Of a DNA stretch of 59,580 nucleotides, positions 33,464 through 57,630 are shown piece by piece (positions within the stretch are counted from its first letter, which is position 1; each line of letters starts with the position of its first letter). The position numbers were made by a program, and so were the translations under genes. Below the pieces are notes generated by a model that was given only the letters and a program-made list of their open reading frames with translations, did not search any database and was not told where the DNA came from. The stretch is from Halothiobacillus sp. Lineage in GTDB: Bacteria; Pseudomonadota; Gammaproteobacteria; JAAZVP01. The stretch spans positions 1 to 59,580 of the forward strand of contig JAAZVP010000010.1 of the NCBI GenBank assembly GCA_018623495.1. The letters are read 5' to 3'.

Positions 33464-33489
33464 CCGGCTCGGCCCCCGGCCGGTTGGTC

Positions 33490-33752
33490 GTGGGAGCGGC
33501 GGCGTCGCCGCGAACTTCCCGAACGGCCCGGAGGCAACCCCCGTTCGCGACCGGGAGGTCGCTCCCACGGTGGATGGGGCTCCGGGAGGGCGGAGCGGCA
33601 CCCGGGCCGTGGGAGCGGCGTCCCCGCCGCGAATCTCCCCGGGTGGCCGGGGGCCCTCCCGTTCGCGACCGGGAGGTCGCTCCCACGGTAGCCGGGGTCC
33701 GGGAGGGCGGAACGCGGTACCCTGTCCGTGGGAGCGGCGTCCCCGCCGCGAA
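33490..33752. repeat. REP-like palindrome cluster (five alternating units)
   Basis: Five copies of a hairpin half-unit alternate in direction. gtgggagcggcgtccccgcc-type units are at 33490, 33609 and 33728; their partners, cgttcgcgaccgggaggtcg...cccac, are at 33542-33568 and about 33660-33686. Each unit can fold on itself. Links share ccgggagggcgg-like sequence. The cluster fills most of the 355 bases between der and the minus-strand cluster; nothing else is visible there. Confidence 0.85.
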
Positions 33753-33818
33753 TGTCCGTCCAGGCGTTCGCCCTGCGCAAAGGAACCGAAGTGGGGCAGC
33801 CGCAGCCGTGAAAGGTTC

Positions 33819-34565
33819 CTAGGCCCCGAGGGTGTCCATGAGGTCGATCATGAACTCGGTGTCTTCCTGCTCGATGGGTTCCCAGGCATCGAAGCCCAGG
33901 GTGTCGAGCACGCCGCGCCCCTTCTCGTCCTCGCTCATCTCCACCAGCCGTTGCTGGATCTCCTCGCGCCGCCCGGCCAGGCGGGGCCCCACCAACAGGC
34001 TGTGGTGGATGACGCTGATCTGGCTCTCGATCAGCGGCCGCAGCCTGGAGCGGACCATCCTGGAGAGGTCCTGGTAGGCCTCGGCGAGGAAGAATCCCAC
34101 GTCGGCCTGGCCGCGGAAGAGCTCCTTGGCCACCAGTACGTAGTTCTGTACCTGCTTGAGCTCGATGTTGTCCCGGGTGAGATCGGCGGGCTCGAGCATG
34201 ATCATGCCCATCAGGTGCACCTCGGGGTCCTCGGCGGAGACCACGGTGATGCCCGGGGACAGCTCTTCGACGTCGTTGATGTCGCTGTCTTCACTGACGG
34301 CGACGATGGCTTCGTCGGCCTTGCCACCGGGGCGTGCCACGGCGGAAAAGCCCTTCTCCCGGACCAGCATGGCGGCGTCGAAGGGATTGGCGTAGATCAG
34401 GTCGATCTCGTCGTTGGCGATCGCCTTGCGCTGCTCGTCGAACCCCGAGTACAGCTCCAGGTGGATGCCCGTGTCCAGGCGTCGCTGGAGACAGGTGTTG
34501 AAGATGTACCAGTCGGAGATGTGGTCCGGCGAGAAGTCCGGGCTCACCGTCATGGTCAGGGACAT
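33819..34565 (-). CDS. Cytoplasmic PhnD-like binding protein A (unknown function)
   Basis: 248 residues with the fold signs of phosphate/phosphonate solute-binding proteins (PhnD type II periplasmic-binding fold), especially DEIDLIYANPFDAAMLV and a PGITVVSAEDPEVHL lobe. It starts MSLTMTVSPDFSPDH and has no signal peptide or lipobox, so it should stay in the cytoplasm, and no ABC permease or ATPase is nearby. The C-terminal signature DEKGRGVLDTLGFDAW is shared with the protein at 35483. Ribosome site GGAGGA lies just before the start. It is the last gene of the cluster. Role as a sensor is inferred, not shown. Confidence 0.8.
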   Translation of the reverse strand: MSLTMTVSPDFSPDHISDWYIFNTCLQRRLDTGIHLELYSGFDEQRKAIANDEIDLIYANPFDAAMLVREKGFSAVARPGGKADEAIVAVSEDSDINDVEELSPGITVVSAEDPEVHLMGMIMLEPADLTRDNIELKQVQNYVLVAKELFRGQADVGFFLAEAYQDLSRMVRSRLRPLIESQISVIHHSLLVGPRLAGRREEIQQRLVEMSEDEKGRGVLDTLGFDAWEPIEQEDTEFMIDLMDTLGA

Positions 34566-35051
34566 TTAATCCTCCTCTCCCCGCATGCTGGCGTAGAGCG
34601 CCTCGCTCTCCTCCACCTTGCGTCGCGAGGGTTTGCGGCGCACGGAAGTGTAACCCACGATCTCGCCGTCGCGAACGTTGGGGATCACGGTGGCATAGAC
34701 CCAGTAGTGGCAGCCGTCCTTGCGCAGGTTCTTGACGTAGCCGTGCCATTGCTGGCGGTTCTCGACCACGTTCCAGAGGTCGGCGAAGGCCTCGCGCGGC
34801 ATGTCCGGGTGGCGCAGGATGTAGTGGGGCTGGCCCACCAACTCGTCCTCGGTGTAGCCGGACATGTCCACGAAGGCCTGGTTGGCGTGGGTGATGACCC
34901 CCTTGGTGTCGGTGCGCGAGACGATCAGCTTGCCGTCCGGGTAGGGGACTTCTTCGTCGGTCACCAGCACCTTGCGCCGGGTGCCGTCGTAGAACGTGAG
35001 TTCGGCCTCGCGGTAGTCGCCGCTCACGTCTTCGGGGCGCATGTCCTCCAT
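34566..35051 (-). CDS. Stand-alone Aer-like PAS domain protein
   Basis: 161 residues with one PAS domain at about residues 40-140, close in sequence to the FAD-binding PAS of the aerotaxis receptor Aer. TDTKGVITHANQAFVDMSGY, GQPHYILRHPDMPREAFADL and NLRKDGCHYWVYATVIP retain the Arg-His and Asp of the Aer GQPH-RHPDMP loop. There is no membrane segment, HAMP, kinase or MCP signalling domain, so its output must be through partners. Ribosome site GAGGAG is 6 bases before ATG 35051. The stop abuts the next start at 34565. FAD binding is inferred from similarity. Confidence 0.85.
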   Translation of the reverse strand: MEDMRPEDVSGDYREAELTFYDGTRRKVLVTDEEVPYPDGKLIVSRTDTKGVITHANQAFVDMSGYTEDELVGQPHYILRHPDMPREAFADLWNVVENRQQWHGYVKNLRKDGCHYWVYATVIPNVRDGEIVGYTSVRRKPSRRKVEESEALYASMRGEED

Positions 35052-35072
35052 GGGCTTCTCCTCGAGAGTCGA

Positions 35073-35435
35073 TCAGAGCAGTTTGGTGATTTCCTCGGCC
35101 GCCCGCTTGACGTCGAGGAAGATCAGGCCGAGCTTGGCGGTGGGCTTGGCCATGACCGTGACCACGGCCTCCTCGCCGGCGTGGGTCATCAGCACGTAGC
35201 CCTGGTCGCCCTTGATCAGGACCTGGTCGAGCTCGCCCCGGGCGAGTTCGCTGGCCGTGCGGTCACCCAGCGAGAGCATGGCCGCGCTCATGGCGCCGAC
35301 GCGGTCCTCGTCCATGCCGGAAGGCAGCAGGGCGGCCATCATCAGGCCGTCGGTGGAGATCACGGCGGAGGCCTCGATATCGGCGGAGGTGCCGTTGAGC
35401 TCGCTCAGGATGGAATTCATGGTTTCTTCGCGCAT
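35073..35435 (-). CDS. Roadblock/LC7 domain protein
   Basis: 120 residues forming one Roadblock/LC7 (MglB-like) domain: DIEASAVISTDGLMMAALLP, MSAAMLSLGDRTASELARG, QVLIKGDQGYVLMTHAG and VVTVMAKPTAKLGLIFLDVK. In bacteria such proteins often dimerise and regulate Ras-like GTPases such as MglA, but no GTPase gene of that type is in this window. GAGGAG lies 7 bases before ATG 35435; a second ATG at 35420 is possible. It sits between the PAS and the second PhnD-like gene, suggesting a shared complex. Confidence 0.88.
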   Translation of the reverse strand: MREETMNSILSELNGTSADIEASAVISTDGLMMAALLPSGMDEDRVGAMSAAMLSLGDRTASELARGELDQVLIKGDQGYVLMTHAGEEAVVTVMAKPTAKLGLIFLDVKRAAEEITKLL

Positions 35436-35482
35436 GGCGTCGCTCCTCGTTTTCTTGTTGGTGGTGCGTGGTGCCTCAGGCG

Positions 35483-36217
35483 TCAGGCGTAGCGCTCACG
35501 GATCGTCTGGATGATATCCCAGTGTTCTTCCTCGACCAGGCGGAAGGCGTCCATCCCCAGGTCCTCGAGCACGGCGCGGCCGCGTTCCGAGTCGGCCATT
35601 CCCGAGAGGATCCCGGCGAGCGCGTCGGCATGGATGGCCTGCTGCGGATGCAGCATGAACATGTGGAAGGCGGTTTGCTCGCCGGATTCGTGCAGGACCT
35701 CGATGGACTTGCGGTTCAGACCGTTGAGGTCGTTGAAGAAGTCGCGGTAGAGAAAGCCGTAGGGCACCTCCTCGCGGTAGACGCTGTTGAGCACGGCCAG
35801 CCAGCTGGGCTTGTCGACGATCTCGCCCGGCCGGATGCCCTCGCGCTCGAGGACGTGGCGGGCGATGTTGGTCGGCAGCATGCTGGTGACCGAGGCCACG
35901 GGCTGGCCCTCCAGGGCCTTCAGTCCCCCCTCGTGGCGGGCCGAGGGCGAGGCGATGAAGACGGTCTCGTCGAACAGGTTGGTGGCCCGGCACAGGGGGA
36001 TGAAGCCGTGTCCCTCCAGCAGCCGCAATGCATCCTGCGGGTTGGCGTAGATCAGGTCCGCCTCGTGCATGCCCTGGTGGAACTCGGCGAAGTCCATGGC
36101 CTGGTCGAAACGGATCGCGGCGTCGAGTTGCTGGCCGAGGTACTGGGCCAGCGCGAACCAGCGCTCGGGTCGCTTGGCGGTGTCGTGCGGGCAGACGCGC
36201 AGGGACCATTTCTCCAT
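35483..36217 (-). CDS. Cytoplasmic PhnD-like binding protein B (paralogue of A)
   Basis: 244 residues, again PhnD-like and without a signal peptide (starts MEKWSLRVCPHDTAKRPERW). Shared with protein A: EADLIYANPQDALRLL and the C-terminal SERGRAVLEDLGMDAF. The ligand-facing regions between these differ greatly, so the two likely recognise different things or one has lost binding. A strong ribosome site AAGGAG precedes ATG 36217. No transporter genes are near. Confidence 0.8.
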   Translation of the reverse strand: MEKWSLRVCPHDTAKRPERWFALAQYLGQQLDAAIRFDQAMDFAEFHQGMHEADLIYANPQDALRLLEGHGFIPLCRATNLFDETVFIASPSARHEGGLKALEGQPVASVTSMLPTNIARHVLEREGIRPGEIVDKPSWLAVLNSVYREEVPYGFLYRDFFNDLNGLNRKSIEVLHESGEQTAFHMFMLHPQQAIHADALAGILSGMADSERGRAVLEDLGMDAFRLVEEEHWDIIQTIRERYA

Positions 36218-36234
36218 GGGGGGACTCCTTCGAA

Positions 36235-36876
36235 TCAGGCGGGGCTTTCGCCGTAACGCTGGGTCAGGACCCAGGCCAGGTCGACCAGCGCCGGCTGGTT
36301 GAGGTTGGGCAGGCCGCTCAGGATCAGCACGAAACGGTGTGCACCGATGAACAGCGGCCAGAAGCCCAGTTCGCTGTTGCCGCCGGCGTTGACCAGCGCC
36401 CAGTTGTGGCTGTCCACGCCCATGTGCTCGGCCAGCAGGCGGTGGTGCCGGCTCTGCAGGGTGCCGATGTCGGCCGAGAGGGCCGACAGGGCCTCGGCGA
36501 TGTCGTGCTCGAAGCCCTGGTTGGCCAGCTGCAGGCCGTGGGTGTCGGCGAGCAGGGCCTGCTGGTCGCCGGCGAGTTCGCGCACCAGCTTGGTCAGTAC
36601 CGTGTCCAGGGTCCCCTCGGGCACCCGTCGCGACTCCTCCAGGCCCTGGATGAATTCCAGGCTCTGCAGGTGGTGGAGCAGCTCCATGCCCTCCTCGCCT
36701 TCACGGCCGGTGATCTGGCCCACGCTCGTCTCGGTGAGCCGCGGGGTGGCATCGGCGGAGAGCATGCGCAGCAGTGTCTCGCGCGCGGGGTCGGCCTCGG
36801 GCCTGGACACGGCGTGGTAGGCGCCGGCGGGCGTGGGCAGCAGGTGGTATTCTCCGAGCAGCTCGAAGTCGCTCAT
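36235..36876 (-). CDS. Unknown protein, possibly Roadblock-like at its C-terminus
   Basis: 213 residues, not confidently recognised. The N-terminal half (about 1-95) is helical with TETSVGQITGREGEEGMELL, resembling a small winged-helix or DUF4388-type module. The C-terminal half has LADTHGLQLANQGF, MGVDSHNWALVNAGGNSELG and HRFVLILSGLPNLNQPALVD, in the order and spacing expected of a Roadblock/LC7 fold. The resemblance is read by eye and is tentative. It sits 17 bases upstream of the PhnD-like B gene in the same operon. Confidence 0.65.
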   Translation of the reverse strand: MSDFELLGEYHLLPTPAGAYHAVSRPEADPARETLLRMLSADATPRLTETSVGQITGREGEEGMELLHHLQSLEFIQGLEESRRVPEGTLDTVLTKLVRELAGDQQALLADTHGLQLANQGFEHDIAEALSALSADIGTLQSRHHRLLAEHMGVDSHNWALVNAGGNSELGFWPLFIGAHRFVLILSGLPNLNQPALVDLAWVLTQRYGESPA

Positions 36877-36939
36877 GGTCTCTCGTCCCTGTTGGCGGTG
36901 TGCGAAGCGTGATGGATCCCGTGTCTGTCCGTCGTGGTG

Positions 36940-38313
36940 TCAGCGCCCCAGCCAGCGCCGGATCAGGCCGCCGCGCTCGCCGCCGGCCGCGGCCTCCGAG
37001 CCCGCATCGAGGGCCACCATGTCCAGCACCAGCAGGGCGCTGAACAGGCCGAAGACATGCCGCAGCGGCACGCCGAGCACGCTCCCGGTCTCGATCAGCG
37101 AGGCGTGACTGTCGCGCCAGAATTGCGCCACCCGCGGCCCGTCGGGTACCGGGTGGAACCGCTCGAGGTCGGGCCAGTGGCGCAGCCGGACCGGCTGGCG
37201 GGGGTCGATGCCGTAGGGCACGCGGCCGCGGGCACTCCAGAGCGTGACCCGCCACAGGAGGGCATCCGCCTGTTCCCGGCGATGGCCTTCCTCCTGCAGG
37301 CGCTCCCATTCTTCCATGGTGATCTCCCGGCCACGCACCTGGCCGGAGGAGAGCGGCGCACGACACAGCGGCCGCAGCAGGGCATCGGGCATGTCGTTGA
37401 TGACCTCCCCGTTGCCCGGCCCCACCACCAGCAGCCGGTTGGTGCCGGTGAGGCGCTGCGGGCGCCGGTTGCGCCGGGCGGTGGCCAGGGTGGCGGCGAG
37501 CACCCCCTGGAGATAGCGTTCCGGGGCGTAGTGGATGTCGGTCTTGCGCGCCGGGTCGGTGTAGGCCGCGTCTTCCAGTTCCCCGCAGCAGTCCGTGCCG
37601 TTGCCGCCGTTGCCGCCGTTGCGCCGGGGTGCCGGCGACGGCTCCGGGGCGTGGCCGGCGGATGCCGGGCGCAGCCCCTGGGCGCCGGGGAGTTCCAGGC
37701 CCATGCTGGCGGTTGCCCCGGCCTTGCGGTTCTCGGCCAGTTCGGGTTCGGCCGCGGCGGCCGGCGCCTCGGCCTCCGGGGCTTTCGCAGCCGGGGTCTC
37801 GGCCGGCGCGGGTTCGGCGGGTGCCTCGGCCGCGGTCGGGGTCCCGGTTTCCGCCGAGGCCGGTTCGGGCTCGGGTTCGGGCTCGGGTTCGGGCTCGGGC
37901 CCGGGCTTCGGCTCCGGTGGGGTAGGCGCGGGGGCCTGTTCGGGCCGGGGTCGTGACGGGGCGGGTTTCTCCTCGGCCCGTGCCTGTCGTTGCTCTTCCA
38001 CCAGGGGCCGGAGCTCGTCGAGCGCGGCCAGGAACTGTTCCTTGTTGAAGGGCTTTTGCAGCCAGATCCCGCGGTCGATGGACTTCTCGCGCACCGACAT
38101 CACCAGCGCCGGCTTGCGCACGTTGAGGCAGTAGTCGGCCCAGACGTCCCGGCCCTCGGGGGCGTCGAGGTCGACCGCCCCGATCTCGGCCGCGTCGCTG
38201 GAGACGATCTCGCAGCAGCCGCGTGCCGGACCGTCGAGGAACATGCGGAACATGCGCTCACCGCGCTCGGTGAAGCCGTGAATGGAAATCTTGACGGGGT
38301 CACGTTGGGGCAT
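36940..38313 (-). CDS. Degenerate receiver protein with Glu-Pro linker and unknown C-terminal domain
   Basis: 457 residues from ATG 38313 (a TTG two codons upstream is possible). Residues about 5-105 look like a CheY-type receiver: KISIHGFTERGERMF, an acidic strand end AVDLDAPEGRDVW, PALVMSV, and the Lys-Pro loop WLQKPFNKEQFLAALDEL. The acidic pocket is not canonical, so phosphorylation is doubtful. Residues about 110-250 are a Pro/Glu/Ala linker with EP repeats and an NGGNGGNG run. The C-terminal domain (about 255-457) has APERYLQGVLAATLATA, VTLWSARGRVPYGID and PVRLRHWPDLERF; I do not recognise it. It is the largest member of the cluster. Confidence 0.75.
   Translation of the reverse strand: MPQRDPVKISIHGFTERGERMFRMFLDGPARGCCEIVSSDAAEIGAVDLDAPEGRDVWADYCLNVRKPALVMSVREKSIDRGIWLQKPFNKEQFLAALDELRPLVEEQRQARAEEKPAPSRPRPEQAPAPTPPEPKPGPEPEPEPEPEPEPASAETGTPTAAEAPAEPAPAETPAAKAPEAEAPAAAAEPELAENRKAGATASMGLELPGAQGLRPASAGHAPEPSPAPRRNGGNGGNGTDCCGELEDAAYTDPARKTDIHYAPERYLQGVLAATLATARRNRRPQRLTGTNRLLVVGPGNGEVINDMPDALLRPLCRAPLSSGQVRGREITMEEWERLQEEGHRREQADALLWRVTLWSARGRVPYGIDPRQPVRLRHWPDLERFHPVPDGPRVAQFWRDSHASLIETGSVLGVPLRHVFGLFSALLVLDMVALDAGSEAAAGGERGGLIRRWLGR
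37862..37905. repeat. Short tandem repeat in the linker coding region
   Basis: Alternating gggttc/gggctc units repeat about seven times and encode the Glu-Pro repeat of the receiver protein on the minus strand. A second short repeat of ccgttgccg units at about 37598-37621 encodes NGGNGGNG. Both are likely to vary in length between strains. Confidence 0.7.
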
Positions 38314-38319
38314 CGGCAA

Positions 38320-39063
38320 TCACCGCTCGGCGTTCGGTTGCTGTGACGAGGCAGGCCAGCCGTCCGGCAGGGGCAGTCCCTGGCGCTCGAACCACGCGGT
38401 CATTCGATCACGGGCGACGTTGCCCGTCGAGCGCCCGTAGATCGCCAGCAGCTCGGCGGCGATGGCGGCATCGGCCGGGCTCTCCCTGAGGGCGGCCTCC
38501 AGCCGCTTGCGGGCCGCCTCGATCTGGCCGACACGGGCCAGTCGCGCGGCCTCCCGGCGGTCCGGGTCGGCGAAGGCCGTGGGCGTCCGTGCGTCTCGCC
38601 GGAGGATCTCCAGCCGGCCGGTGACGCCCTGGGTGAGCATGGTGTGGCGGATCCGCGCCAGGCCCGGGTCGTCGCTGCCCAGGCCGTCGTCGAGCCGCCG
38701 GCGAAGGAAGATGGCGGCCGTTTTCGGCAGGAACGGTTCGGCCTCGGCCAGCAGGCGCTCGCGCAACGGGCGACCGTAACGACCCAGGGCGATGAACAGA
38801 TCCGCCATGGCGCCGGAGACCATCGACTTGGTGCCGTGCTCCTCGAGCAACCGGATTCGATGGAGATGCGCATGCAGGTCGCCGGGGCGGTCGTGGATGC
38901 GCTGGCCCAGCGAGCGGATGGTCGCCATGGGGTCCACGGGGTGGTCGCCCGTGGCCGGCATCGAACGGGCCACGGCAAGGGCGAAATGGGGATCCACCCT
39001 GCCGATCCCGCGGATGGCAGGGGGAGTACCGGTGGCCCGTATCAGGCGTTTTCCGTCATGCAT
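38320..39063 (-). CDS. TPR-like helical protein, first gene of the sensory cluster
   Basis: 247 residues, soluble and helical, with no signal peptide. The C-terminal part has a TPR-like pair, AARLARVGQIEAARKRLEAA then DAAIAAELLAIYGRSTGN. The middle contains GAMADLFIALGRYGRPLRER. No enzyme motif is visible. ATG 39063 is preceded by GGGAG at 7 bases, which supports this start. The stop is 6 bases before the receiver-protein start, so the two are probably cotranscribed. A scaffold role is a guess. Confidence 0.65.
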   Translation of the reverse strand: MHDGKRLIRATGTPPAIRGIGRVDPHFALAVARSMPATGDHPVDPMATIRSLGQRIHDRPGDLHAHLHRIRLLEEHGTKSMVSGAMADLFIALGRYGRPLRERLLAEAEPFLPKTAAIFLRRRLDDGLGSDDPGLARIRHTMLTQGVTGRLEILRRDARTPTAFADPDRREAARLARVGQIEAARKRLEAALRESPADAAIAAELLAIYGRSTGNVARDRMTAWFERQGLPLPDGWPASSQQPNAER

Positions 39064-57216: not shown

Positions 57217-57630
57217 GTGGGAGCGACCTCCCGGTCGCGAACGGGGGGGCTCCTTCCGCCCGGGGATTTCGCGGCGAGGACGCCGCTCCCACGGCCCGGG
57301 TGCCGCGCTCCACCCTCCCGGACCCCGGCTGTTGTGGGAGCGACCTCCCGGTCGCGAACGGGGGTTGCCTCCTGGCCGCCCGGGAGGTTCGCGGCGGGGA
57401 CGCCGCTCCCACAGGGAACGCGGGGCTCCCGGACCCCGGCCACCGTGGGAGCGACCTCCCGGTCGCGAACGGGGGGCTCCTTCCGCCCGGGGATTTCGCG
57501 GCGAGGACGCCGCTCCCACAGGGAACGCGGGGCTCCCGGACCCCATCCACCGTGGGAGCGACCTCCCGGTCGCGAACGGCGGTTGCCTCCCGACGGTTCG
57601 GGAAGTTCGCGGCGGGGACGCCGCTCCCAC
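57217..57630. repeat. REP-like palindrome array (four inverted pairs)
   Basis: Eight alternating units: gtgggagcgacctcccggtc... at 57217, 57334, 57445 and 57552, each followed by ttcgcggcg-ggacgccgctcccac at 57268, 57388, 57494 and 57606. Pairs repeat every 107-117 bases, with links such as gggctcccggaccccggcca. Same family as 33490-33752. The array fills most of the 600 bases between pilD and the Uma2-family gene. Confidence 0.88.

Follow-up and report, generated by a model that had tools for sequence, protein, structure and literature searches.

The current understanding of bacterial Roadblock proteins is that they regulate Ras-like GTPases. The Group 3 MglA GTPases of beta- and gammaproteobacteria have been described by Wuichet & Sogaard-Andersen 2014 (PMC4316618); their neighborhood comprises a receiver/winged-helix protein and one or two MglB, and the hallmarks of the GTPase are GTPGQ (G3), DAR (G5) and a mostly lysine-less G4. 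In Snodgrassella, the mutation of a Group 3 orphan mglB results in colony flares, which were ascribed to type IV pili (T4P; PMC11112851). Here we analyzed a 59,580-nucleotide stretch of DNA (the window), which represents the entire contig C67 of a gammaproteobacterial genome. This genome comprises 2.46 Mb in 110 contigs, is 98.97% complete and has no kin below class level in the genome collection used. The seven-gene operon of the window is probably a derived system of the little-characterized Group 3 MglA type, composed of a known core and a new sensor module and deprived of its GTPase, and we assign a probability of about 0.6 to this reading.

Gene layout and the Group 3 core

The seven intact and co-directional ORFs are located on the minus strand (window 33819-39063), with intergenic gaps of 6, 63, 17, 47, 21 and 0 bp from the first to the last gene, and purine-rich ribosome sites precede most of them. 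An earlier note on this DNA had proposed an operon of seven minus-strand genes with short gaps, which is confirmed by the observed range of 0-63 bp, and its domain calls were borne out by Pfam, AlphaFold models and PDB matches. The operon is flanked by an M23 peptidase gene upstream and the convergent der gene downstream. REP-like palindromic repeats form two clusters (33480-33760 and 57217-57630), whose units (GTGGGAGCG...CGCGAA) alternate in orientation at about 60-bp steps, and one of them sits between the operon end and der.

The first gene (38320..39063, minus strand) encodes a protein of 247 aa that is TPR-like at most, with weak TPR matches only. Nearly all of its 70 collected homologs are likewise first in their operon. 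Weak matches to FimV_Cterm and PilW were found in 4/32 and 9/32 members, respectively, and an identification as FimV was rejected given the few and weak matches. The second gene (36940..38313 with an ATG start, minus strand; 457 aa) encodes a receiver/winged-helix-like protein, the Group 3 Mgl associated protein. Its AlphaFold model exhibits a degenerate CheY-like fold at the N-terminus, for which receiver matches reach a probability of 1.0 though with E>1e-3, and a disordered proline/alanine linker that leads to a C-terminal domain with a pLDDT mostly >90 but weak winged-helix-like matches and no confident PDB or fold match. The acidic site of the receiver is degenerate in the window protein. 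The homologs of this protein stand between the TPR gene and the GTPase or RB2 gene, and it is homologous to the GTPase-adjacent gene of the relatives.

Two Roadblock proteins are encoded downstream on the same strand. RB2 (36235..36876, minus; 213 aa) matches Pfam Roadblock at only 0.043, i.e. below the cutoff, but its AlphaFold model (pLDDT 93.2) consists of a winged helix followed by an MglB/Roadblock fold, with the MglB proteins of M. xanthus and Thermus as top Foldseek matches. RB1 (35073..35435, minus; 120 aa) is a single-domain, MglB-like protein with a Pfam Roadblock match of 1.6e-14 and is 70-82% identical across orders. Between the receiver gene and RB2 lies a GTPase-free gap of 63 bp (36877..36939, minus), at which most relatives carry the gene of a MglA-type GTPase of about 180 aa. 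Their operon order is TPR - receiver/winged-helix - small GTPase - RB2 - RB1 - Aer-like PAS - PhnD-like, and their GTPase harbors GTPGQ in 70/70 and DAR in 67/70 sequences together with a mostly lysine-less G4. Hallmarks and neighborhood thus match Group 3 MglA, and the core of the operon is already known. The earlier view that the set belongs to no described system does not hold for this core, since the combination of receiver-winged-helix protein, GTPase and one or two MglB has been published as Group 3 MglA. PADLOC models gave no match to any of the seven proteins, and an identity as anti-phage defense system was rejected on this basis.

Distribution of the operon and loss of the GTPase

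A single-sequence search with RB2 against the collected genome contigs retrieved nothing. The PhnD2 alignment search of the contigs yielded 431 relatives, the best 80 of which were examined; these loci were picked for PhnD2 similarity, and co-occurrence is therefore inflated among them. The best 80 of the 431 comprise Methylococcales, Oceanospirillales, Thiotrichaceae, chemosynthetic symbionts, a Halothiobacillaceae MAG and Anaerolineae- or Ardenticatenaceae-labelled MAGs, and the system is present in cultured methanotrophs (Methylotuvimicrobium buryatense, Methylomonas) as well as in Marinobacterium and Amphritea isolates. The gene set recurs elsewhere, a point raised by the earlier note: dozens of genomes from several orders share its arrangement, far more than chance would produce. 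In nine further genomes that carry a close PhnD2, this arrangement includes the GTPase between receiver and RB2. Among the loci with receiver, RB2 and RB1, 52 contain GTPase and sensors (9/52 with protoglobin), 18 contain sensors without GTPase (17 Oceanospirillales and the window) and 10 contain the GTPase without sensors. A further locus (L147) combines receiver, RB2 and RB1 with protoglobin and harbors neither GTPase nor PAS/PhnD. One locus encodes a single protein that fuses a MglA-type GTPase with a Roadblock domain (L112:2114-3037), convergent to a PAS-PhnD pair.

The GTPase model has no match at E<=10 anywhere in the host genome as assembled, and the same model matches in 47/274 genomes of the class. 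With respect to Group 3 membership, MglB-like Roadblock proteins are present in the window, and a GTPGQ/DAR GTPase is absent from both window and genome. The earlier description of Roadblock proteins without a GTPase is correct for the window, but it captures a derived state, as nearly all relatives outside the Oceanospirillales possess the GTPase. In the RB1+RB2 tree, the window falls into a group of 15 taxa that is GTPase-positive apart from the window itself (UFBoot 99), L147 belongs to a 3-taxon group with two GTPase-positive members (94), and the sampled Oceanospirillales form one clade (100). The three separate placements are indicative of at least three losses, namely in the window, in the sampled Oceanospirillales and in the further family of L147. 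L082, whose contig begins at RB2, and G066/G197 (L149, L148), with an ambiguous ORF between receiver and RB1, were left out of this count. Seven of the 16 GTPase-less Oceanospirillales tested, among them Marinobacterium sediminicola with its complete chromosome, have no recognizable GTPase of the Group 3 kind anywhere; 9/16 carry a more distant GTPase elsewhere (159-190 bits, mostly longer ORFs), which could substitute for the lost one in these strains. The repeated loss suggests that sensors and scaffold can work without the switch.

The cytosolic sensors and their association with RB1

The last two genes of the operon encode the sensor pair. The Aer-type PAS protein (34566..35051, minus; 161 aa) matches the aerotaxis receptor structures PDB 8dik (2.9e-38) and 31cj, and the RHPDMP motif is present in 84/87 homologs. 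The domain is probably of the FAD type with predicted flavin binding. It shares the PAS sequence including RHPDMP with the Aer receptor, but the protein consists of the PAS only and lacks HAMP, membrane and chemoreceptor signaling domains, i.e. it has no transmitter. PhnD2 (33819..34565, minus; 248 aa) and PhnD1 (35483..36217, minus; 244 aa), a second PhnD-like protein encoded between RB2 and RB1, match PF12974 at 5.7e-40 and 1.3e-21, respectively. Neither carries a signal peptide, and a conserved SPD starts at residue 8 in 86/88 PhnD2 homologs, with the fold beginning within eight residues of the start Met. The cytosolic location claimed earlier is accordingly supported. The closest solved relative of PhnD2 is PtxB, with a weak match (7e-4), whose STSSH stretch is not conserved and faces other residues in the alignment with PhnD2; phosphite or phosphonate is hence an unsafe guess for the ligand. 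PhnD1 and PhnD2 resemble the periplasmic PhnD/PtxB binding proteins in their fold (PF12974) and differ from them in the missing signal peptide, the missing STSSH stretch and the lack of ABC transporter genes, since no ATPase or permease gene lies beside the PhnD genes, which have no conserved neighbors other than those of the operon. A further PhnD-like protein of the cytosol (33-35% identical) is encoded near type II secretion-like genes in two relatives (L041, L042), where it is preceded by a gene for a 128-aa SCP2 sterol-carrier-like protein (L041:10327-10713).

An ortholog of PhnD1 (204 bits) occupies the same slot beside an intact GTPase in the Halothiobacillaceae MAG L119, and other relatives harbor a protoglobin between RB2 and PAS, which identifies the RB2-to-PAS stretch as a variable sensor slot. 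This slot accommodates an extra small gene without Pfam match between PhnD1 and RB1 in L119 (L119:2895-3341). The earlier idea of multi-input sensing gains support from the addition of a protoglobin or a second PhnD at the same position in some relatives.

The sensors are associated with RB1 beyond the operon. Within 274 gammaproteobacterial genomes, a strong RB1 is present in 27 and a close PhnD2 in 10, all ten of which belong to the 27 (Fisher 1.5e-11). When PAS-PhnD2 lies apart from the core operon, 10/11 genomes retain a conserved RB1; four of the genomes with a detached pair are Chloroflexota-labelled MAGs, with an RB1 without any nearby core gene. The L111 MAG, which is possibly incomplete, contains PAS-PhnD2 without RB1. 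In Neptuniibacter (L110) the minimal RB1-PAS-PhnD2 unit stands alone, and a second locus with receiver, RB2 and RB1 is located elsewhere. The PAS-PhnD2 pairs of the Anaerolineae/Ardenticatenaceae-labelled MAGs L058, L065, L085 and L117 are about 60% identical to those of the window, with RB1 elsewhere in the bins, and reflect either cross-phylum transfer or binning.

The same association emerges from the constraint after GTPase loss. At a matched PAS/PhnD2 identity of 70-78%, in pairs that share a tree and are not independent, the identity of GTPase-less versus GTPase-bearing pairs is 91 vs 88% for RB1, 49 vs 64% for RB2 and 30 vs 47% for the receiver. RB1, PAS and PhnD2 thus stay tightly conserved, and RB2 and the receiver drift. 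This pattern suggests an orientation of RB2 and the receiver toward the GTPase and a grouping of RB1 with the sensors. Of the new findings, the strongest is that RB1 appears to track the sensors rather than the GTPase. The weaker constraint on RB2 and the receiver could also be expected from a decaying remnant, i.e. an operon that drifts after GTPase loss and will eventually disappear. This scenario is highly improbable given that RB1, PAS and PhnD2 are equally conserved before and after the loss, that all seven frames are intact, and that the loss is old and the remaining genes have been retained throughout the whole Oceanospirillales clade.

Possible outputs and comparison with known systems

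Starting from the gene set, order and folds, the repeated GTPase loss and the association of PAS-PhnD2 with RB1, we infer the following signaling steps. The Aer-like PAS would read the redox or respiratory state via FAD, and PhnD2, together with PhnD1 in the window, would read a small cytosolic solute. Both may act on RB1, whose Roadblock dimer would serve as a platform. In most species RB1 and RB2 would determine which state the small GTPase adopts; the receiver/winged-helix and TPR proteins would form the effector side, and the output would be carried by the GTPase and/or the receiver/winged-helix protein. Where the GTPase is gone, as in the window, the sampled Oceanospirillales and one other family, the RB1-sensor complex may act directly on RB2 and the receiver/winged-helix protein or on another target. 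We place the same confidence as above in this model as a whole, a Group 3 MglA operon that gained a cytosolic sensor module and lost its GTPase, with RB1 as the predicted partner of the redox/solute sensor pair. That RB1-PAS-PhnD forms a GTPase-independent module with its own output, in which a Roadblock dimer joins the inputs of a flavin redox sensor and a solute-binding protein of the cytosol, is a more tentative proposal with the odds somewhat against it. If true, bacteria would employ the Roadblock fold in a novel way. An operon that keeps Roadblock and sensors yet dropped the GTPase on at least three occasions allows stand-alone Roadblock signaling to be tested directly.

A motility output is possible, and a transcriptional output equally so. 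The earlier note had suggested, as an unproven idea, a link of the cluster to type IV pili or taxis, and the operon could belong to an ordinary Mgl polarity system that uses a different, unlinked GTPase and whose PAS/PhnD proteins tune pilus activity. Its core is homologous to MglB/receiver systems, the flares of the Snodgrassella mutant were attributed to T4P, the TPR protein is weakly FimV/PilW-like, and PilT is present in 27/27 system-bearing genomes including the host. However, 25.7 are expected from size-matched genomes (p=0.26), so that the raw association (p=0.009) vanishes after size matching and was rejected as pilus evidence; the proposed link is unsupported beyond this background. 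Moreover, no output gene and no pil gene was found among the conserved neighbors outside the operon, which show local synteny only (the aconitase side, and an opposite-strand chemoreceptor in some Amphritea), and the MglA-type GTPase is missing from the host genome and from the seven Oceanospirillales mentioned above. A pilus polarity system is consequently unlikely. Flagella, as judged by FliF, are weakly enriched (24/27 vs 19.4 expected from size-matched genomes, p=0.026), and the host genome carries PilT, FliF and CheA.

The alternative of a transcriptional circuit, in which the sensors set the Roadblock state and thereby gate the receiver/winged-helix protein on DNA, is possible but rather doubtful. 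The combination of receiver and winged helix, from which PMC4316618 argued likewise in the case of Group 3, and the winged helix of RB2 itself are in accordance with it, but winged helices frequently serve protein-protein contacts as well, the acidic site of the window receiver is degenerate, and the C-terminal domain has no confident PDB match.

The preferred reading of a derived Group 3 system can be set against other known assemblies. Actinobacterial conservons (Cvn; Mfp) likewise combine a Roadblock protein with sensor input and a small GTPase in one operon, but neither a CvnA histidine kinase nor CvnC is present among the seven proteins, and the sensors are separate cytosolic proteins. 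The Myxococcus module of MglA, MglB, RomR and SgmX is similar by analogy, in that a small GTPase works with Roadblock, receiver and TPR proteins. Homology was tested at the level of the Roadblock fold, and the window differs in lacking the GTPase and any sign of polarity. The literature searched, beyond whose reach most subscription papers lay, contained no description of the PAS-PhnD-Roadblock set. Group 3 Mgl systems would gain an input side composed of a flavin-type redox sensor, a cytosolic PhnD fold and sometimes a protoglobin. The window differs from the Group 3 MglA operons in the absence of the GTPase and in the Aer-like PAS, PhnD-like and TPR-like genes, which are undescribed in PMC4316618, and it shares with them the MglB-like Roadblock proteins and, in the same operon, a receiver-fold protein whose C-terminal domain may be the winged helix of the published description.
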